Source: Clostridia bacterium (GTDB lineage: Bacteria > Bacillota_A > Clostridia > Oscillospirales > Acutalibacteraceae). Taken from it: a stretch of DNA of 7,160 bases. A model generated the notes under the pieces. The model saw nothing but the letters and a program-made list of their open reading frames with translations, did no database searches and had not been told where the DNA came from. Where the stretch lies: positions 1-7,160 of the forward strand of contig JAFSAK010000025.1 of the NCBI GenBank assembly GCA_017441045.1, in the 5' to 3' direction. Positions 1 to 7,160 of this stretch are shown here, piece after piece. The number at the start of each line of letters is the position of its first letter. Position 1 is the stretch's first letter. A program made the position numbers and the translations under genes.

Positions 1-781
1 TAACCTTTGGCTCGTTGAAGACAACTGCGATGCTTTAGGCACCCAGTATACCATTGACGGTGAAACCCGTTTCAGCGGTACTTGGGGCGATATCGGTACC
101 TCCAGCTTCTATCCTCCCCATCATATGACAATGGGCGAAGGCGGCTGTGTTTACACCAATAATCCCCTTTTAAACCGTCTTATCCTTTCCTATCGTGACT
201 GGGGCAGAGATTGTATCTGTCCTTCAGGTATGGACAACTTCTGCAAACACCGTTTCGAAGGTCAGTATGGCGAATTACCCCGCGGTTACGACCATAAATA
301 TGTATATTCCCATTTCGGTTATAATCTTAAGGTTACCGATTTGCAGGCGGCAGTAGGTTGCGAACAGCTTAAAAAGTTCCCCTCATTTATTGAAAGACGC
401 CGTCATAACTGGGATCGCTTGCGCGCCGCTCTTGAGCCCGTAGCAGACAAGCTCATTCTCCCCGAGGCCGCAGAAAACAGCCGTCCTTCTTGGTTTGGCT
501 TCCTCATTTCCGTTAAGGAAGATAGCGGTCTTGACCGTAACACCGTTACAAAATATATTGAAGACAAGAATGTTCAGACCCGTCTTTTATTCTCGGGCAA
601 CCTTGTTAAGCATCCTTGCTTCGACGAAATTCGAGGCACCGATGCATATAGAGTTTCGGGCGACCTTACCGTTACCGATTTCATTATGAACAACTCTTTC
701 TGGGTAGGCGTATATCCCGGTATGACTGATGAAATGATTGACTATATGGCAAGCGTTATCATCGAGGCAGTTAATCAGTAA
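1..781 (+). CDS. rfbH: RfbH/DdhC (E1)-type CDP-4-keto-6-deoxy-D-glucose 3-dehydrase, 5'-truncated
   Basis: The reading frame is open from base 2 to the TAA at 779-781 and gives the last 259 residues of a protein usually about 435 residues long; the N-terminal ~180 residues lie upstream of the window. It belongs to the DegT/DnrJ/EryC1 aminotransferase fold. The Schiff-base lysine is replaced by His: FYPPHHMTMGEGG puts H40 (visible numbering) where K sits in the SFxxxK....GEGG motif. That swap marks the PMP-dependent 3-dehydrases, which remove the C-3 hydroxyl of CDP-4-keto-6-deoxyglucose in the cytoplasm. Cysteines C9, C71, C73 and C81 give C-X61-C-X-C-X7-C, matching the [2Fe-2S] pattern known for Yersinia E1 (C-X57-C-X-C-X7-C) with four extra residues before the His. 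DWGRDC and YDHKYVYSHFGYNLK are also family-typical. Electrons normally come from a separate E3 reductase, not seen here. The product would be a CDP-3,6-dideoxy-4-keto-hexose. The call is very secure; the final sugar is inferred from neighbours. Confidence 0.95.
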   Translation, partial: NLWLVEDNCDALGTQYTIDGETRFSGTWGDIGTSSFYPPHHMTMGEGGCVYTNNPLLNRLILSYRDWGRDCICPSGMDNFCKHRFEGQYGELPRGYDHKYVYSHFGYNLKVTDLQAAVGCEQLKKFPSFIERRRHNWDRLRAALEPVADKLILPEAAENSRPSWFGFLISVKEDSGLDRNTVTKYIEDKNVQTRLLFSGNLVKHPCFDEIRGTDAYRVSGDLTVTDFIMNNSFWVGVYPGMTDEMIDYMASVIIEAVNQ

Positions 782-782
782 A

Positions 783-1277
783 ATGAAACTCAAAGAACTT
801 TTAAAAACCGAAAAATTTGCGGCGTTTATTCAGTTTGTTAAATTCTGCATTGTCGGTGTTAGTAACACGCTTATTTCCTATGGAATTGATATGCTGTGTT
901 TCTATGTGCTTTTCGGATTTCTCGATTTTCAAGGGGCGGTTAATCTCCTGTCAAAAATAGGTTTAACCGCTTCTGCAGATACAGTTAAAACGGTTATTGC
1001 CTCTATATTGGCCTTCGTTATAAGCGTTACCAATTCTTATTTCTGGAACAATCGTTTTGTATTTAAAGCGGGAAACTCCACCTTTAAAGACCATTTAAAA
1101 TCTTATTTCAAAACATTTCTTTGTTATGGCGTAACGGGACTTATTATTTCCCCCGTTATTAAGGTTTTGCTTGTGAACGCAAGCATACCCTACGCCATAG
1201 CAAGTTTTGGCTCGCTTATTGTAACAATCCCCATAAACTTTATCCTCAATAAGTTTTGGGCATTTAAAAAGCAATAA
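783..1277 (+). CDS. GtrA-family membrane protein (putative polyprenyl-phosphate-sugar flippase)
   Basis: This 164-residue, highly hydrophobic protein has the GtrA fold signature: FCIVGVSNTLISYG at about residues 21-34, NSYFWNNRFVFK at 84-95, and PINFILNKFWAFK near the C-terminus (150-162). About four membrane segments are predicted by eye (roughly 17-45, 70-90, 105-125, 130-155). GtrA proteins are thought to move undecaprenyl-phosphate-linked monosaccharides across the cytoplasmic membrane, classically with a GtrB synthase and a dedicated membrane glycosyltransferase; substrates vary widely in the family. The ATG at 783 is chosen over an in-frame ATG at 738 because the 738 version would overlap rfbH by 44 nt and add a non-hydrophobic leader unlike the family. 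Only one base separates the rfbH stop from 783, which suggests translational coupling; the nearest purine-rich site (GAGG, 764-767) is too distant to be a good ribosome binding site. No GtrB partner is in the window. The family call is firm, the substrate unknown. Confidence 0.88.
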   Translation: MKLKELLKTEKFAAFIQFVKFCIVGVSNTLISYGIDMLCFYVLFGFLDFQGAVNLLSKIGLTASADTVKTVIASILAFVISVTNSYFWNNRFVFKAGNSTFKDHLKSYFKTFLCYGVTGLIISPVIKVLLVNASIPYAIASFGSLIVTIPINFILNKFWAFKKQ

Positions 1278-1281
1278 TGCC

Positions 1282-1300
1282 CTGATTTATTGCCAATCAG
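1282..1300 (+). repeat. Small intergenic inverted repeat before the first glycosyltransferase gene
   Basis: CTGATT (1282-1287) and AATCAG (1295-1300) are perfect inverted copies around a 7-nt loop, in the 42-nt gap between the GtrA gene and the next CDS. No T-run follows, so it is not a standard intrinsic terminator. It could be a weak mRNA hairpin just upstream of the ribosome binding site, or chance. Confidence 0.3.
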
Positions 1301-1307
1301 TTTAGTC

Positions 1308-1313
1308 GGGAGG
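1308..1313 (+). promoter_or_regulatory. Ribosome binding site fixing the start at 1320
   Basis: GGGAGG lies 6 nt before the ATG at 1320. It decides against an in-frame TTG at 1290, which would place this site inside the coding region and has no Shine-Dalgarno sequence of its own. Confidence 0.8.
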
Positions 1314-1319
1314 TCTTAT

Positions 1320-3356
1320 ATGTCCGGTATCGGTTTAGATAATAACAGTATAAAAAAAGACACATATATAAAATATGCGGACATCATCGCTCTATGCTTT
1401 TCATTGGTTGTTTACGCATTATTTAATCTTCTTTTGGTGAATAAGTTTTTCCCCATTACTGAAGGTTGGTTTCAGGATGCCGCAAACTATATAAACAACG
1501 GAGAAACCATATATAAAGATTTCTATATGTTTATTCCGCCCGGTTTTCCAATGCTTACCTCTGCCATAAGCGCATTATCCGATAATGCATTTATAATATT
1601 CCGCTTAATCGGTGTTGCCGAGCGCCTTGCTATGTTGGCCCTCGTATACCGTATGTTGCGGCGATTATTTAGCCCTATGGTTTCGGCAGTTTCGGCTTTA
1701 ACGGGCGCCGTTGTATATATCGCAAATGTTCAAGAAATATTTTACGGATATTATCAAACTTCACTTTTTCTCGGATTAATCGGCGTTTGGCTTTGTATCC
1801 GTATGTATGAAACTTTTGAAGAAAATCCGTATATTCATGCTTTTTTCTTTGGTTTCTGCGCGGCGGCTTCCTTTATGGTTAAGCAAACTTTGGGACTTTT
1901 ACTTTCCCTTGCCGTTGGCGTTATGTTTTTGGCGGCAGTTTATTTCGTAAATATGAAAAAAGCCCTTAAAGTTTTGGGCATCGTTGTTGTGGGATGCGCC
2001 GTATTTTTCGCCGGCGCTATTATGACAATGTTCTTTACGGATACGCTTATTCCCTTTGTGAAACAGGTTTTCGGCGGCGCAAGTTCTAAAGGCAGTTTAT
2101 TATCTGTCTTATTCGGATTTATTCCCCGAATTCTCACACCAAACGCTTTGATTCTCGGCGGATTTTTCTTGGTATTTTATGTTCTTAATGTTATCAAAGA
2201 AAAATTCAGTGGCCCCAAAACCCAATTAATATGCGATATCATCCAGTGGATGCTCATATTGGCCGTAAGCGTATGGTTGATAGTTGTTTTGGTTGATGCC
2301 GTTAAAAACCGCGACCAAGCATTTCCTGTTACTTGGAAATTAATCCTTTTATTAGTAATAGGTTTCTTAATTTTGGGACTTGGATTTGCCTTTATGTGCT
2401 CAAAAGAAAGTTCCAAAAAACACTGGGCTATTGCCCCTTCGATTATGTTGGCAGGATTTGTCTTTTTATTCAGAACAATAACATCTGCCAAGCAAAGTTT
2501 ATTTAATTTTTTCCAGTTGCGTGACTTCCGTCAGCATTTCTTATTTGCAATTTTCTTGGCCGAATTTTTAATTTCTGTATATTTGCTATACCTTGTTGCC
2601 ATTAAAAAGGACCGTTCAAAAACGGTGGGACTTATTATTTGTGTGGCTTCGTGGAGTATTATGTATGTTCACGGTTTTTCTTACACTATAGAGGACCACA
2701 GCGCGTTTCTTTCGGTTTCTTTGTTTATGGGTTATCTGCTTTCGGCGCCTATATCGGTTAAGAAAGCAAAACAGGTACTTGCTCTTATATTGGCTTGTTT
2801 TACAGTGCTCACGGTATTTTATCAGCGAAATTGGTTTACTTATCATTGGTGGGGAGTTAATATGACCAACACCACCTATGATGCCACCGCAACCTTTGAT
2901 GACCCACATCTTAAAGGAATTTATGCAAACAGCGAAACTACCGTTCCGATGAACGAAATATATCATCTGGTTGAACAATATAAAAAGGAAGATTCAACTC
3001 TCTATTCGTTCCCACACATTGCATATTTCAATGTTATGGCAAATCTTCCTTCGCCAACTTTTGCCAAGACTCACTATTTTGATGTTTGTTCCGATAATCA
3101 GGCCAAGGCGGATGCAACCGTCTTATTGCAAAACCCGCCCGATTTCATAGTTTGGATGGATATGCCCGAAGAAACCTGGTTAATTCACGAAGAATTATTC
3201 CGAAACGAAGAAGCCAGCGGTCAAAGGGACATTCAAAAGGCCTATCAAGCTCTGGTTGAAAGCGGAAGTTATTCGCTTTTAGGTGTATATCGCATCTATA
3301 GTTCCGACCCTATATATCTTTGGGTCAGCAATGAACTAAAGATTCAAACCAATTAA
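1320..3356 (+). CDS. Large polytopic GT-C-type membrane glycosyltransferase (GT39/ArnT-like architecture)
   Basis: The 678-residue protein starts with a short cytoplasmic tail and a first membrane segment at about 20-40. An outside loop follows containing TEGWFQDAANYI (47-58) and IYKDFYMFIPPGFP (64-77). An acidic residue before an amphipathic helix, then a DF and a PP pair in the first large loop, is the usual layout of GT-C enzymes that use polyprenyl-phosphate sugars (PMT/ArnT-like); E48, D53 and D67 are candidate catalytic or metal residues. About 12-14 membrane segments run to roughly residue 500. Residues 502-678 are hydrophilic and probably extracytoplasmic, with family-like stretches such as PTFAKTHYFDVC and PPDFIVWMDMP. 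Substrate and acceptor cannot be read from the sequence. Placement directly after GtrA suggests it uses a lipid-linked sugar delivered to the outer face. A polymerase (Wzy-like) or ligase role is less likely because of the GT-C-like first loop, but is not excluded. Confidence 0.72.
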   Translation: MSGIGLDNNSIKKDTYIKYADIIALCFSLVVYALFNLLLVNKFFPITEGWFQDAANYINNGETIYKDFYMFIPPGFPMLTSAISALSDNAFIIFRLIGVAERLAMLALVYRMLRRLFSPMVSAVSALTGAVVYIANVQEIFYGYYQTSLFLGLIGVWLCIRMYETFEENPYIHAFFFGFCAAASFMVKQTLGLLLSLAVGVMFLAAVYFVNMKKALKVLGIVVVGCAVFFAGAIMTMFFTDTLIPFVKQVFGGASSKGSLLSVLFGFIPRILTPNALILGGFFLVFYVLNVIKEKFSGPKTQLICDIIQWMLILAVSVWLIVVLVDAVKNRDQAFPVTWKLILLLVIGFLILGLGFAFMCSKESSKKHWAIAPSIMLAGFVFLFRTITSAKQSLFNFFQLRDFRQHFLFAIFLAEFLISVYLLYLVAIKKDRSKTVGLIICVASWSIMYVHGFSYTIEDHSAFLSVSLFMGYLLSAPISVKKAKQVLALILACFTVLTVFYQRNWFTYHWWGVNMTNTTYDATATFDDPHLKGIYANSETTVPMNEIYHLVEQYKKEDSTLYSFPHIAYFNVMANLPSPTFAKTHYFDVCSDNQAKADATVLLQNPPDFIVWMDMPEETWLIHEELFRNEEASGQRDIQKAYQALVESGSYSLLGVYRIYSSDPIYLWVSNELKIQTN

Positions 3357-3460
3357 ACTTTTTCGAAATTTTATAAACTCCGTGGCAATTAATTCCGCCG
3401 CACAACAAGGAGCGTGACGAAGGTTTTTGCTCGCGTCTATTCTCCGAAGGAGGCATCAGT
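3357..3460 (+). promoter_or_regulatory. Longest intergenic gap: possible 5' leader with competing hairpins over the RBS
   Basis: This 104-nt gap is the largest in the window. CTCC at 3442-3445 can pair in two exclusive ways. It can pair with GGAG at 3409-3412, reinforced by GACG (3416-3419) with CGTC (3434-3437). Alternatively it can pair with GGAG at 3449-3452 inside the Shine-Dalgarno sequence across a GAA loop. The second form would hide the ribosome binding site of the next gene; the first would free it. Stems are short (4 bp each), so this is a suggestion only. No convincing -35/-10 pair or T-run terminator is visible. Confidence 0.3.
3447..3453 (+). promoter_or_regulatory. Strong ribosome binding site supporting a TTG start at 3461
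   Basis: AAGGAGG, close to a full complement of the 16S rRNA 3' end, sits 7 nt before TTG 3461. There is no in-frame ATG at a comparable distance, so TTG is the start. Confidence 0.88.
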
Positions 3461-4732
3461 TTGAAAGAAAAATATAAAATCGCCTTTGGGGCGGCTACAA
3501 CCCCTCAAAAAATATTCGTTTTCGGGACTTTAACGCTTTTAGCATATACGGTTATTACCTTCTTTTTTACGGGGGGACGTAGCTTCTATATGCTTTTGCA
3601 TCCCGATACTCAGGATACAATGATGGATTTCTTTAATAGTATCTACGATGCTAATTTCTTAAATCCTTATGCCGATAAAGGCAATATTTATCCCGCAATT
3701 TGTCTTCTCTACTATAGATTTTGCGGCAACTTTATGAATCCCGAATTCTCCACCTCTTTTCAGTGGAGAAACGACCAATGGGGCCTTATTACCTGCGCTC
3801 TTATTTTGGCTTTTACTTGTATTATCATCTATACCCTTTTAAAACCAAAAGAGATAAAATCACTTGTAGACAGATATTTCTATATAGTACTCATTACAGG
3901 TACCGTTCCCTTCTGGTATTGCTATGAAAGAGGAAATATTATTCTTCAGGCCCTTATGTTCCTTTTGGTTTTTATACGCTTTTATAAGAGTGATAATAAA
4001 TTTCTTAGAGAACTTGCCCTAATATGTTTGGCAATTGCCACCGCCATTAAGATTTATCCCGTATTTTTCGGTTTGCTTCTTATAAAAAATAAAATGTGGA
4101 AAGAATCCTTACGCGCCGTTATTTACGGAATAATATTCTTCTTCCTTCCCTTTATTGTTTTCGGCGGCCTCGATGCCATTAAACTGATGGTGGAAAACAT
4201 CTTCGCCACCGATGCAAAAATGAAGATCTTTGGCTTTGGTTATAAGGTAAATTTAAGCAACACTCTGGCCTTCCTTTCCAAACTTACGGGAATTGAGTTA
4301 ACCGTTTCCCGCACATTCTGCTTTGTTTTCGTCTTTATTTTAGGCGGCACTGTATTCTTGCTCTCTAAAGAAACTTGGAAACTCGAGGCGGTTTTGGGCG
4401 CGGCGGTTATCCTTATTGCAGGTTTCAGCTATACCTATACTCTGCTTTATATGGTTATACCCCTTGTAACATATTTTGAAAGCCGCAGCGAACGGGGATT
4501 TATCGATTATATTTATATGATTCTTTTCGTATGTATGTTTGCCCCATTCTCCTTCGGCGATTACGACTTTTTCGGTATCGACCCCGATGCTTTTTATAGG
4601 TTAGGTCTTACTACTACTATATCGAGTTTGGCGCTCGTAGCGCTTTTATGCCTACTCGCCATTGATACCCTTTATCCCTACTTTAGAAAAGTTATATTTA
4701 AAAACAAAACAAAAGCGGAATTACCCGCATAA
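3461..4732 (+). CDS. Polytopic membrane glycosyltransferase, GT87/DUF2029-like
   Basis: The 423-residue protein has about ten membrane segments, the first at roughly 18-36. An outside loop then carries D49, D52 and D56 (HPDTQDTMMDFF), where GT-C enzymes keep their catalytic acidic residue. Two motifs point to GT87/DUF2029: WYCYERGN at 152-159, where the family has an R-G-N/Q after a membrane segment, and AIKIYPV at 195-201, the family's conserved K-x-YP. Length matches the usual ~400 residues. Known GT87 members are polyprenyl-phosphate-mannose-dependent mannosyltransferases of actinobacterial lipoglycans, acting on the outer face; the sugar used here is unknown. Translation starts at TTG behind a strong AAGGAGG. 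It follows another membrane glycosyltransferase and ends 19 nt before the ThDP enzyme. A flippase- or polymerase-like role is the main alternative. Confidence 0.75.
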   Translation: MKEKYKIAFGAATTPQKIFVFGTLTLLAYTVITFFFTGGRSFYMLLHPDTQDTMMDFFNSIYDANFLNPYADKGNIYPAICLLYYRFCGNFMNPEFSTSFQWRNDQWGLITCALILAFTCIIIYTLLKPKEIKSLVDRYFYIVLITGTVPFWYCYERGNIILQALMFLLVFIRFYKSDNKFLRELALICLAIATAIKIYPVFFGLLLIKNKMWKESLRAVIYGIIFFFLPFIVFGGLDAIKLMVENIFATDAKMKIFGFGYKVNLSNTLAFLSKLTGIELTVSRTFCFVFVFILGGTVFLLSKETWKLEAVLGAAVILIAGFSYTYTLLYMVIPLVTYFESRSERGFIDYIYMILFVCMFAPFSFGDYDFFGIDPDAFYRLGLTTTISSLALVALLCLLAIDTLYPYFRKVIFKNKTKAELPA

Positions 4733-4736
4733 AAAA

Positions 4737-4744
4737 TTAAGGAG
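4737..4744 (+). promoter_or_regulatory. Ribosome binding site fixing the start at 4752
   Basis: TTAAGGAG ends 7 nt before ATG 4752. It decides against an in-frame ATG at 4662, which would overlap the upstream gene by 71 nt and add 30 basic, non-family residues. Confidence 0.85.
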
Positions 4745-4751
4745 TCCCATC

Positions 4752-6584
4752 ATGAAACAAAGACTTGCAGATTATGTTGCCGATTTTTTAGTTGCTAAAG
4801 GTGTTACCGATGTGTTTTCCGTAGTTGGCGGAGGCGCTATGCACCTTAATGACGCTCTCGGCCATCACGAAAACCTAAAGGTGACCTATAACCATCACGA
4901 GCAGGCAAGCGCCATTGCGGCCGAGGCCTATGCCCGACTTGACAACAAAATCGCCGCTTTGTGCGTTACCACCGGCCCTGGAGGCACCAATGCTTTAACG
5001 GGTGTTGTTGGCGGTTGGCTTGATTCTATTCCTATGTTTGTAATTTCTGGTCAGGTGCGTTATGATACCACCGCCCGCTATGCTCTTGAGTTCACCGAAA
5101 CTCCCCTTCGCGCTATGGGTGACCAGGAATATGATATTGTTAAATCAGTAGAGCCCATGACCAAGTATGCGGTTATGATTGAGGACCCCACCCGAATCCG
5201 CTACGAACTTGAAAAGGCATGGCACCTTGCAACCACGGGCAGACCCGGTCCTGTTTGGGTGGATATTCCCGTAAACTTCCAAGGCGGATTCATCGAAACT
5301 GATGAACTTGAGGGCTATAATCCAGAAGAGGACGATAAACTTCTTCCTCCTGAAGTGGATGATGCTACCATCGATACGGTTATCGAAAAAATCAAGAACG
5401 CCAAGCGCCCCGTTTTCCATGCGGGTTACGGAATTCGCCTTTCGGGCGGTTTTGAAAAGTTCAGAAGCGTTCTCGAAAAACTCAATATTCCCATCGTTAC
5501 CTATTGGAACGCCATTGATTTAATAGAATCCGACCATCCTTTATACTGCGGCAGAGCAGGAAATATGGGCGACCGCGCAGGTAACTGGGCAATTCAGAAT
5601 GCCGACCTTATTTTAGCAGTCGGCACCCGTATATCCATTCGTCAAACCGGCTATAACTGGAAAACTTGGGCAAGAAATGCCGAAGTTATTATGGTGGATA
5701 TTGATAAGGCAGAACTTAAGAAACCTACTTTGCACGTTGAATATCCCGTTTGGGCAGATGCAAAGGATTTCCTTACTAAACTTGATAATAAACTTATCGG
5801 CAAGATATACAAAGGCGAAGAATGGCTTTCGGCCTGCCGCGGATGGAAGGAAAAATATCCCGTTGTCCGCGAAGACCAGAAGGCAGAAAACGGCGAAACC
5901 GCCAATGTTTATGCCTTTGTTGACTATATGAGCCGCCAGCTCCCCGAAAATGCACTGACCGCCGTATCCAACGGCGCTTGCTGCGTTGTAGGCCATCAAG
6001 CGTACCATATTAAAAAAGGCGCCCGTTTCGCTAATAACAGCGCAGTTGCAAGTATGGGTTACGGACTTCCCGCCGCTATTGGTACCTGCATAGGCGGCGG
6101 AAGAAAAGAAACTATATGTCTTGAAGGCGATGGCTCCATAATGATGAATCTGCAAGAACTTCAGACCATCCTTACAAATCGCCTTCCCATCAAGATTTTC
6201 CTTATAAATAATAGCGGATATCACTCTATCCGTATAACACAAACCAACCTTTTCTCTCATCACTGCAAGGTAGGTATCGGCGAAGAATCGGGCGACCTTT
6301 CCTTCCCCGAGTTTGAGAAACTGGCCCGCGCCTTCGGCTATACCTATTTCTCGGCTCATAGCAACGAGGAAATGAAGACCGCGGTTAATAATACCTTAAA
6401 TACCGAAGGTCCCGTTTTCTGCGAAATATTTACCGATACAAAGCAGGTTTGGGAACCCAAGAGCAGTACCAAACGTCTGCCCGACGGAACCCTCGTAAGT
6501 CCTCCCCTTGAGGACCTGGCTCCCTTCCTTCCCCGCGAAGAATTAAGAGAAATTATGTTTGTTCCACTTATTGATGAGGAATAG
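4752..6584 (+). CDS. ThDP-dependent acetolactate-synthase-superfamily enzyme, YerE-like (sugar branch-forming candidate)
   Basis: The 610-residue protein has the three-domain layout of the acetolactate synthase/pyruvate oxidase superfamily. The N-terminal pyrimidine-binding domain (~1-180) contains GGGAMHLND and HHEQASAIAAEAYAR, with E50 as the conserved glutamate that activates ThDP, then TTGPGGTN (73-80). The middle Rossmann-like domain (~200-345) could hold FAD. The C-terminal domain carries the ThDP/Mg signature: GDGS at 459-462 and NN at 486-487, the standard spacing. No regulatory-subunit gene or other ilv genes are nearby. The setting with RfbH upstream and an SDR 5 nt downstream resembles Yersinia yerE-yerF, where YerE decarboxylates pyruvate and adds an acetyl unit to C-4 of CDP-3,6-dideoxy-4-keto-glucose. 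That role is inferred from context and family; the superfamily call itself is secure. Alternatives are another 2-keto-acid decarboxylase/ligase acting on a sugar, or housekeeping acetolactate synthase (unlikely here). Confidence 0.85.
   Translation: MKQRLADYVADFLVAKGVTDVFSVVGGGAMHLNDALGHHENLKVTYNHHEQASAIAAEAYARLDNKIAALCVTTGPGGTNALTGVVGGWLDSIPMFVISGQVRYDTTARYALEFTETPLRAMGDQEYDIVKSVEPMTKYAVMIEDPTRIRYELEKAWHLATTGRPGPVWVDIPVNFQGGFIETDELEGYNPEEDDKLLPPEVDDATIDTVIEKIKNAKRPVFHAGYGIRLSGGFEKFRSVLEKLNIPIVTYWNAIDLIESDHPLYCGRAGNMGDRAGNWAIQNADLILAVGTRISIRQTGYNWKTWARNAEVIMVDIDKAELKKPTLHVEYPVWADAKDFLTKLDNKLIGKIYKGEEWLSACRGWKEKYPVVREDQKAENGETANVYAFVDYMSRQLPENALTAVSNGACCVVGHQAYHIKKGARFANNSAVASMGYGLPAAIGTCIGGGRKETICLEGDGSIMMNLQELQTILTNRLPIKIFLINNSGYHSIRITQTNLFSHHCKVGIGEESGDLSFPEFEKLARAFGYTYFSAHSNEEMKTAVNNTLNTEGPVFCEIFTDTKQVWEPKSSTKRLPDGTLVSPPLEDLAPFLPREELREIMFVPLIDEE
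6576..6580 (+). promoter_or_regulatory. Ribosome binding site embedded in the end of the ThDP gene
   Basis: GAGGA overlaps the last codons of the upstream CDS and lies 9 nt before ATG 6590, so translation of the SDR gene is probably coupled to the ThDP gene. Confidence 0.6.
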
Positions 6585-6589
6585 ATTAA

Positions 6590-7160
6590 ATGATTAAAAG
6601 AGATATAAAATCAGCGGTGCTTACAGGACCTACGGGGGCTATAGGTACCGCCCTTTGCGAAGAACTCGCAAAAAACGGGATAAAGGTTTACGCCGTTTGC
6701 CGACCTAATTCGAGCCGAAGCGACGCTATTCCCCAAAATCCCCTGATAAATAAGGTTTTTTGCGACCTTTCTAACCTTAAAGGCCTTAAAAACCTGATTC
6801 CCGAAAAGGTAGATGCTTTTTACCACTTTGGTTGGGCGCATACTATTGGTGACGGCAGAAATGATATGAAAGCCCAGATAGAAAATATGGGCTATACCAT
6901 TGATGCGGTCCGCGCCGCCGCGACACTTGGCTGTAAAATTTTTATAGGCGCGGGAAGTCAGGCCGAATATGGCAGAGTTGATGGAGTTTTAACCCCATCA
7001 ACCCCTTGTTTTCCCGAAAACGGATACGGTATCGCCAAACTTGCGGCGGGAAATATGAGCCGAATTGAGTGCGAAAAACTGGGAATCGAGCATATTTGGG
7101 TGCGTATTTTAAGTGTTTACGGCCCTAAAGACAGTAGCTCCACTATGGTTTCGGGACTCA
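6590..7160 (+). CDS. Extended SDR: NAD(P)-dependent sugar-nucleotide reductase/epimerase, 3'-truncated (YerF-like by context)
   Basis: The frame is open from ATG 6590 to the window end, giving the first 190 residues; extended SDRs usually run 280-340. The N-terminal Rossmann fold shows TGPTGAIG (12-19), the TGxxGxxG dinucleotide-binding motif, with R38 after the second strand (VCRPNSSR), which hints at NADP(H). D59 is in the usual adenine-contact position (CDLS). HFGW (79-82) replaces the more common HLAA. The catalytic set is present: S123 in GAGSQAEYG, and Y146-x3-K150 in ENGYGIAKLAAG. Substrate-side sequence continues with VRILSVYGP. The gene begins 5 nt after the ThDP gene. In yersiniose A synthesis the partner YerF reduces the ketone of the newly added branch; that job is inferred here from gene order. 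A C-4 ketoreductase or an epimerase for the dideoxysugar are real alternatives. Confidence 0.88.
   Translation, partial: MIKRDIKSAVLTGPTGAIGTALCEELAKNGIKVYAVCRPNSSRSDAIPQNPLINKVFCDLSNLKGLKNLIPEKVDAFYHFGWAHTIGDGRNDMKAQIENMGYTIDAVRAAATLGCKIFIGAGSQAEYGRVDGVLTPSTPCFPENGYGIAKLAAGNMSRIECEKLGIEHIWVRILSVYGPKDSSSTMVSGL

Follow-up and report, generated by a model that had tools for sequence, protein, structure and literature searches.

The stretch analysed here, 7,160 nucleotides of contig JAFSAK010000025.1 (hereafter the window), contains the 3' part of an rfbH gene, a gene for a thiamine diphosphate (ThDP)-dependent carboligase and the beginning of a gene for an extended short-chain dehydrogenase/reductase (SDR). 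As one part of the joint explanation developed below, the window is probably the middle of an operon for a branched 3,6-dideoxy sugar. Its features are as follows:

2-781, + strand: rfbH (ddhC-like), 3' part encoding 259 amino acids, with the 5' part off the window; RfbH model NF011936, Pfam DegT_DnrJ_EryC1
783-1277, + strand: gtrA-like gene for a small membrane protein, a probable polyprenyl-phosphate-sugar flippase; Pfam GtrA_DPMS_TM, 65.7 bits, scanned from 792
1320-3356, + strand: PMT_2-like membrane glycosyltransferase (GT-C type), 678 amino acids; Pfam PMT_2, 25.4 bits, below the cut-off of 26.1
3461-4732, + strand: GT87-family membrane glycosyltransferase, 423 amino acids; Pfam GT87, 36.3 bits, cut-off 25
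4752-6584, + strand: YerE-like ThDP-dependent carboligase, 610 amino acids; all three TPP_enzyme Pfam domains
6590-7159, + strand: extended SDR, first 190 amino acids, open at the window end; Pfam Epimerase, 86.4 bits

These genes form one tight run on a single strand, with intergenic gaps of 1, 42, 104, 19 and 5 bp in gene order (with ATG starts at 783 and 1320), in agreement with a preliminary description of this DNA that had placed rfbH, the ThDP gene and the SDR gene in one operon. The GtrA, PMT_2-like and GT87 genes, which are the three between rfbH and the ThDP gene, did not figure in that description. The ATG of the PMT_2-like gene at 1320 is preceded by gggaggt and the TTG start of the GT87 gene at 3461 by aaggagg; purine-rich Shine-Dalgarno-like stretches precede the starts at 1320, 3461 and 4752. 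The G+C content of the window is 42.3%. A Clostridia-like host, as had been proposed, is probable on the indirect basis that the best 80 genomic relatives of the ThDP enzyme are mostly labelled Clostridia, with a few labelled Treponema, Synergistales, Erysipelotrichaceae and Lactobacillus rogosae.

A YerE-like ThDP enzyme

In a search of the PDB, the window ThDP enzyme matched best the entry 8rph (449.8 bits), the structure of JanthE from Janthinobacterium sp. HH01, which is a YerE-like enzyme (PMC12188165); an acetolactate synthase came next at 236 bits. A sequence under the name Janthinobacterium sp. HH01 was 100% identical to the 8rph chain. The window enzyme and JanthE are homologous over their whole length (38.8% identity) and have the C-terminal stretch DG(T)LVSPPLEDL in common. 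The ThDP site is intact, with HHEQ at position 48 and the GDG(X)nN motif placed with GDG at 459 and N at 487, a canonical GDG where JanthE has CDG. JanthE has five docking positions. The equivalent of K567 is kept in the window enzyme and all 80 best relatives, and that of Y297 in the window enzyme and 79 of the 80; at the other three, V121, Y268 and P293 of JanthE, the window enzyme has D, M and R.

Six clostridial IlvB-type proteins formed a separate clade (support 100/100) in a careful tree of 35 rows, in which the window enzyme stood among YerE-like proteins, both JanthE-like ones and others from Clostridia, and a 125-row FastTree likewise set it apart from IlvB; some long branches in these trees leave the order inside the YerE-like part unsure. 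The preliminary description had staked its reading beforehand on the enzyme lying outside biosynthetic IlvB, and both scores and trees group it with JanthE. Membership of the YerE-like carboligase class is thus supported by way of JanthE.

That the enzyme might be an ordinary acetolactate synthase or catabolic decarboxylase, present here by chance, is very improbable. Its best NCBIfam model is indeed the IlvB-type TIGR00118, but the score of 332 bits lies far under the 538-bit cut-off of that model; moreover, IlvB is placed elsewhere in both trees, and many genomes with a close relative of the ThDP enzyme also carry a separate IlvB-type gene at ~31% identity. An identity as IlvB or as catabolic acetolactate synthase was rejected on the trees and the scores (450 versus 236 bits). 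A plasmid search for YerE gave acetolactate synthases and other ThDP enzymes, ~28-32% identical, among the matches listed.

Relatives of the ThDP enzyme are abundant. A protein search yielded at least 7,994 candidates, each of the 120 matches listed being at least 82% identical, and a contig scan yielded at least 578 relatives, of which the best 80 (L001-L080, 69-85% identical) underlie the locus counts given here. Longest-ORF (open reading frame) calling missed the ThDP gene in six of the 80 loci (cluster c0 comprising 74), in some of them via an antisense frame, and locus genes were therefore counted by tblastn: the ThDP gene in 80, rfbH in 52, SDR in 48, rfbF in 46, rfbG in 42, a PgfS/ArnC-like GT2 glycosyltransferase in 38, an HMGL-type aldolase in 21, GtrA in 11 and PfkB in 7. 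Many loci end at contig ends, and the counts include weak matches for rfbG (L054, 24%), GT2 (L069, L073 and L074, 25-31%) and the aldolase (L015 and L020, 34-38%). Compared with curated models, the cluster representatives of rfbF (TIGR02623, 396 bits, cut-off 300), rfbG (TIGR02622, 446 bits, cut-off 278) and rfbH (NF011936, 707 bits, cut-off 423) scored above the cut-offs, and the GT2 representative, PgfS/ArnC-like, scored under those of its models. In L050, a second, distant (27%) ThDP-enzyme gene lies directly behind the first (11907-13373).

RfbH and its tie to the ThDP enzyme

The window RfbH fragment reaches 425 bits against NF011936 (cut-off 423) with only ~57% of the 450-amino-acid protein present, and its best solved relatives are 3bcx (E 9.5e-94) and 3bb8, both entries for the cytidine diphosphate (CDP)-4-keto-6-deoxyglucose 3-dehydrase. 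It has HH at the position of the pyridoxal phosphate-binding lysine of aminotransferases (SSFYPPHHMTMGEGG) and the Cys pattern C-X61-C-X1-C-X7-C; among 43 RfbH ORFs of relatives, HH is present in 42, and the Cys spacing matched 41 times. We take the replacement of Lys by HH and the Cys pattern to be marks of a dehydrase that uses pyridoxamine phosphate (PMP) and a [2Fe-2S] cluster. The pattern of the Yersinia RfbH/DdhC enzyme is presumably C-X57-C-X1-C-X7-C, an exact spacing found in none of the 43 ORFs; compared with it, the window enzyme would agree in the last three Cys ligands and have four more residues in the first gap. The window rfbH product is probably a PMP-dependent, [2Fe-2S] CDP-4-keto-6-deoxy-glucose 3-dehydrase.

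Genes for the two preceding steps accompany rfbH in most relatives. In 45 rfbH loci, either 3 kb or more of DNA preceding rfbH was available or rfbF and rfbG were both seen. Of these loci, 37 have both genes and 42 have one or both, and in 23 rfbG is the gene directly upstream of rfbH. For 28 loci no rfbH was present in the fetched stretch, and in the genomes of 23 of these an rfbH over the cut-off was found elsewhere, so that 75 of the 80 ThDP relatives are accompanied by an RfbH (52 in the same stretch and 23 elsewhere); none of 14 control genomes had one over the cut-off. Tandem rfbF-like cytidylyltransferase genes, ~43% and ~50% identical to the RfbF query, stand behind the ThDP gene and rfbG in L069 (13130-14694), L070 (6454-8003), L073 (13067-14607) and L074 (13014-14557).

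Across 115 genomes of the family of genome G001, the ThDP enzyme (at least 390 bits) and RfbH (E 1e-80 or better; 45 genomes, 44 over the cut-off) occur together in 43, with the ThDP enzyme alone in two, RfbH alone in two and neither in 68 (Fisher p 1e-26, a value inflated by kinship); two of the RfbH counts come from split genes (G045 and G101). The aldolase (E 1e-40 or better) and the ThDP enzyme occur together in 43 of the same genomes, with the ThDP enzyme alone in two, the aldolase alone in one and neither in 69. This tie between the ThDP enzyme and RfbH, found in 43 of the 47 genomes having either, bears on the possibility that the SDR is a 4-ketoreductase of the paratose or abequose type giving a plain 3,6-dideoxyhexose, with the ThDP enzyme belonging to some other pathway. 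A parallel exists in Clostridium butyricum DSM 10702, for which synthesis of CDP-paratose via RfbF, RfbG, RfbH and RfbS is predicted (PMC13317340). We nevertheless regard a plain sugar as improbable, given the co-occurrence and a ThDP enzyme that is YerE-like and not IlvB-like.

Proposed pathway and the length of the branch

The operon, in the explanation that we consider likely, makes a CDP-3,6-dideoxyhexose with a C-4 carbon branch derived from pyruvate and puts this sugar on the cell surface. The proposal builds on directly observed gene content, gene order, protein families and the ThDP-RfbH tie across genomes, and from these we infer all of the reactions, pyruvate as the donor and the route of export. 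RfbF and RfbG, presumably encoded off the left edge, would give CDP-4-keto-6-deoxyglucose, from which RfbH would take off the 3-hydroxyl. The ThDP enzyme would decarboxylate a 2-oxo acid (here most likely pyruvate) and add the acyl anion onto the 4-ketone, yielding a tertiary alcohol with an acyl branch, and the SDR would reduce the branch ketone to give a yersiniose-like sugar. A GT2 enzyme, encoded behind the SDR gene in many relatives (e.g. L007, L009 and L049), would probably load the sugar onto undecaprenyl phosphate; GtrA would flip the carrier-linked sugar and the GT-C enzymes would attach it outside.

The pathway class, in which a branch is added at C-4 of a CDP-3,6-dideoxy-4-keto sugar, is well supported by the grouping of the ThDP enzyme with JanthE and by rfbF, rfbG and rfbH in the relatives. 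To this extent the yersiniose-like pathway of the preliminary description stands; yersiniose as the product is less certain, given an aldolase gene directly behind the ThDP gene in 20 of the 80 relatives. As to export, known three-component systems put a sugar onto undecaprenyl phosphate, flip it, as is thought, via GtrA/GtcA and transfer it on the outside, as outlined in one account of them (PMC7389260). The likeness to GtcA systems, with GtrA and two GT-C genes in the window and GT2 in the relatives, suggests that the sugar is probably exported via undecaprenyl phosphate. In L007, a protein encoded between rfbH and the ThDP gene shares 27% identity with the window PMT-like protein.

In 26 of the 80 loci the ThDP gene is followed directly by an SDR gene, as in the window, and in 20 by an HMGL-type (4-hydroxy-2-oxo-acid) aldolase gene. 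The HMGL-type protein is ~525 amino acids long, its N-terminal domain resembles 4-hydroxy-2-oxovalerate aldolase, and its DCTLRDG stretch, His 194 and His 196 are invariant in 24 aligned copies. In a Foldseek comparison, a structure predicted for the L003 aldolase from 24 sequences (pLDDT 89.8) matched best 3dxi, which is a putative aldolase, and aldolases for 4-hydroxy-2-oxovalerate. The C-terminal part of this protein (L003 11874-13451, residues ~300-525) is conserved in relatives and gave no Pfam match. The same place directly behind the ThDP gene is taken by a KDPG/KHG aldolase in L013 (11974-12594), NeuB in L046 (11875-12753) and HpcH/HpaI in L056 (11928-12734) and, by clustering, L054 (10960-11784) and L061 (11899-12684), unrelated families that are possible makers of 4-hydroxy-2-oxo acids; a HAD-like protein occupies it in L026 and, by clustering, L025. 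In a second group of ThDP enzymes at ~50% identity, 14 of 15 fetched loci, L111 being the exception, have an aldolase gene upstream of the ThDP gene; in L117, the one locus inspected closely, the two are separated by a DxDGT gene that by eye looks like one for a HAD phosphatase. More distant ThDP enzymes (~37% identical) in L130, L135 and L136 have an aldolase gene ~3 kb off and no rfbF/rfbG/rfbH set in the 19 kb fetched, and may branch another sugar.

ErwE uses hydroxylated 2-oxo acids as donors and does not use pyruvate, the donor preferred by YerE (PMC12247030), and JanthE takes 4-hydroxy-2-oxovalerate with benzaldehyde (PMC12188165). Given such donor use by ErwE, the aldolase genes beside the ThDP gene suggest that part of the ThDP family may form longer branches, namely where the HMGL-type aldolase follows. 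No such aldolase gene is found directly behind the window ThDP gene or elsewhere in the window. A search for a donor signature in ThDP residues, comparing 24 of the 80 loci with an adjacent donor-maker gene to 30 without one (26 were left out), returned nothing (best Fisher p 6e-4 in 2,146 tests).

The SDR would be the enzyme acting on the branch, and it may be informative about the branch where the ligase is not. The window SDR, with the motifs TGPTGAIG, GAGSQAEYG and YGIAK, is a candidate branch ketoreductase in a YerF-like role. In the SDR tree it belongs to a clade of 15 rows (support 98/96), the 14 others of which have no aldolase between the ThDP gene and the SDR gene. The careful tree comprised 63 of 69 rows, six long-branched rows having been dropped, and a quick tree of all 69 gave the same clade; neither tree included rows with a stop in the translation or a score below 120 bits. 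The 69-row tree has 32 aldolase-linked rows (aldolase in the same locus or, for L140 and L141, in the same genome), and all of them lie outside this clade (Fisher p 3.5e-5, for one clade and thus not independent). In a genome-wide aldolase search covering the genomes of 79 of the 80 loci (L074 left out), 19 of the 26 genomes with the ThDP-SDR order had no strong (E < 1e-60) match to the HMGL-type aldolase.

Because the window holds no aldolase gene and its SDR falls in a clade free of aldolases between the ThDP gene and the SDR gene, a pyruvate-derived two-carbon, yersiniose-like branch is favoured; on the same two grounds an aldolase-dependent donor is not taken as the main reading and stands as an alternative. 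In that alternative the pathway is the same and a longer hydroxylated 2-oxo acid, supplied by an aldolase encoded elsewhere, would lead to a higher-carbon sugar of the erwiniose or caryophyllose type. We think this rather unlikely, the aldolase-free genomes of the same gene order adding to the evidence against it, although the HMGL-type, KDPG, HpcH/HpaI and NeuB genes behind the ThDP gene in relatives and the donor use of ErwE and JanthE argue for it.

Several observations weigh against the pyruvate-based pathway. Among the ThDP relatives whose surroundings are known, the nearest ones (by identity L001, L002 and L003, and by the tree L008) have an aldolase gene right behind the ThDP gene, and the ThDP tree mixes aldolase-bearing and aldolase-free loci (14 label changes; shuffled mean 18.0, with 3 of 500 shuffles as low). 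As neither this tree nor the residues separate the two kinds, an aldolase could lie further along the genome of the window. Thirteen of the 26 rows with the SDR directly behind the ThDP gene fall outside the SDR clade of the window, several of them among the aldolase-linked rows, and a distant (31-32%) aldolase is encoded elsewhere in 3 of the 14 clade genomes (L022, L024 and L029). The window starts inside rfbH, and rfbF, rfbG and the GT2 gene lie outside it. The kinship of the ThDP enzyme with the YerE class was established through JanthE. RfbH presumably requires a reductase partner; a motif scan, which can miss such a protein, found a DdhD/RfbI-type [2Fe-2S] flavoprotein reductase in none of the 1,087 ORFs of the 80 loci, and the gene may lie elsewhere.

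Wider reading and comparison with known systems

A broader and more tentative reading takes the relatives together as a modular factory in Clostridia, many of them from animal guts, in which one conserved YerE-like ligase (69-85% identity among the best 80 loci) would be combined with exchangeable donor makers: none where pyruvate is used, or an HMGL-, HpcH/HpaI-, KDPG- or NeuB-type enzyme, some with a phosphatase or kinase. On this modular reading, the SDR and not the ligase would track the branch, and the window would be the two-carbon version. If so, the relatives would make a family of 3,6-dideoxy-4-C-branched sugars as yet undescribed, ranging from octoses up to higher-carbon sugars and carried to Gram-positive surfaces via undecaprenyl-phosphate carriers. 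Branched 3,6-dideoxy sugars would then be widespread on commensal Clostridia, where they could serve as antigens, phage receptors or lectin ligands, and the pairing of ThDP enzymes with aldolases in nature would add to the enzymes available for making chiral tertiary alcohols.

C-branched 3,6-dideoxy sugars are known from polysaccharides of Gram-negative bacteria and glycolipids of mycobacteria; antibiotics from Gram-positive bacteria contain other octoses branched at C-4 (PMC12247030, PMC4753412). For Clostridium, 3,6-dideoxyhexoses, paratose included, have been predicted on flagellins (PMC13317340). A literature search on yersiniose gave, in titles and the opening parts of abstracts of the matches listed, nothing about Firmicutes or Clostridia, and a clostridial branched sugar was absent from the best-ranked matches of searches on YerE, branched sugars, RfbH and Clostridia.

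The closest parallel is the yersiniose A pathway of Yersinia pseudotuberculosis (DdhA-D, YerE and YerF), which the window resembles in bringing together RfbH/DdhC, a YerE-like ThDP enzyme and an SDR, and many of its relatives in carrying rfbF and rfbG in the rfbH locus. It differs from that pathway in the probable clostridial host, in the GtrA and GT-C genes within the run and, among relatives, in the optional aldolases and in loci where no DdhD-type reductase was seen by motif. The likeness to JanthE lies in HHEQ, the K567 and Y297 equivalents and the SPPLEDL terminus. ErwE (erwiniose) and MMAR_2332 (caryophyllose), compared by description, belong to the same enzyme class, and some relatives share with them an aldolase gene beside the ThDP gene; unlike these users of hydroxylated donors, the window has no visible aldolase (PMC12247030). 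The pathway predicted for C. butyricum DSM 10702 likewise places RfbF, RfbG and RfbH in a Clostridium, but leads to a plain 3,6-dideoxyhexose, and the words 'thiamine' and 'acetolactate' are absent from the main text of that report (PMC13317340). In its export genes, finally, the window resembles teichoic-acid glycosylation by GtcA, as far as that account describes it, in combining a GtrA-type protein with membrane glycosyltransferases, joined in many relatives by a GT2 enzyme (PMC7389260).

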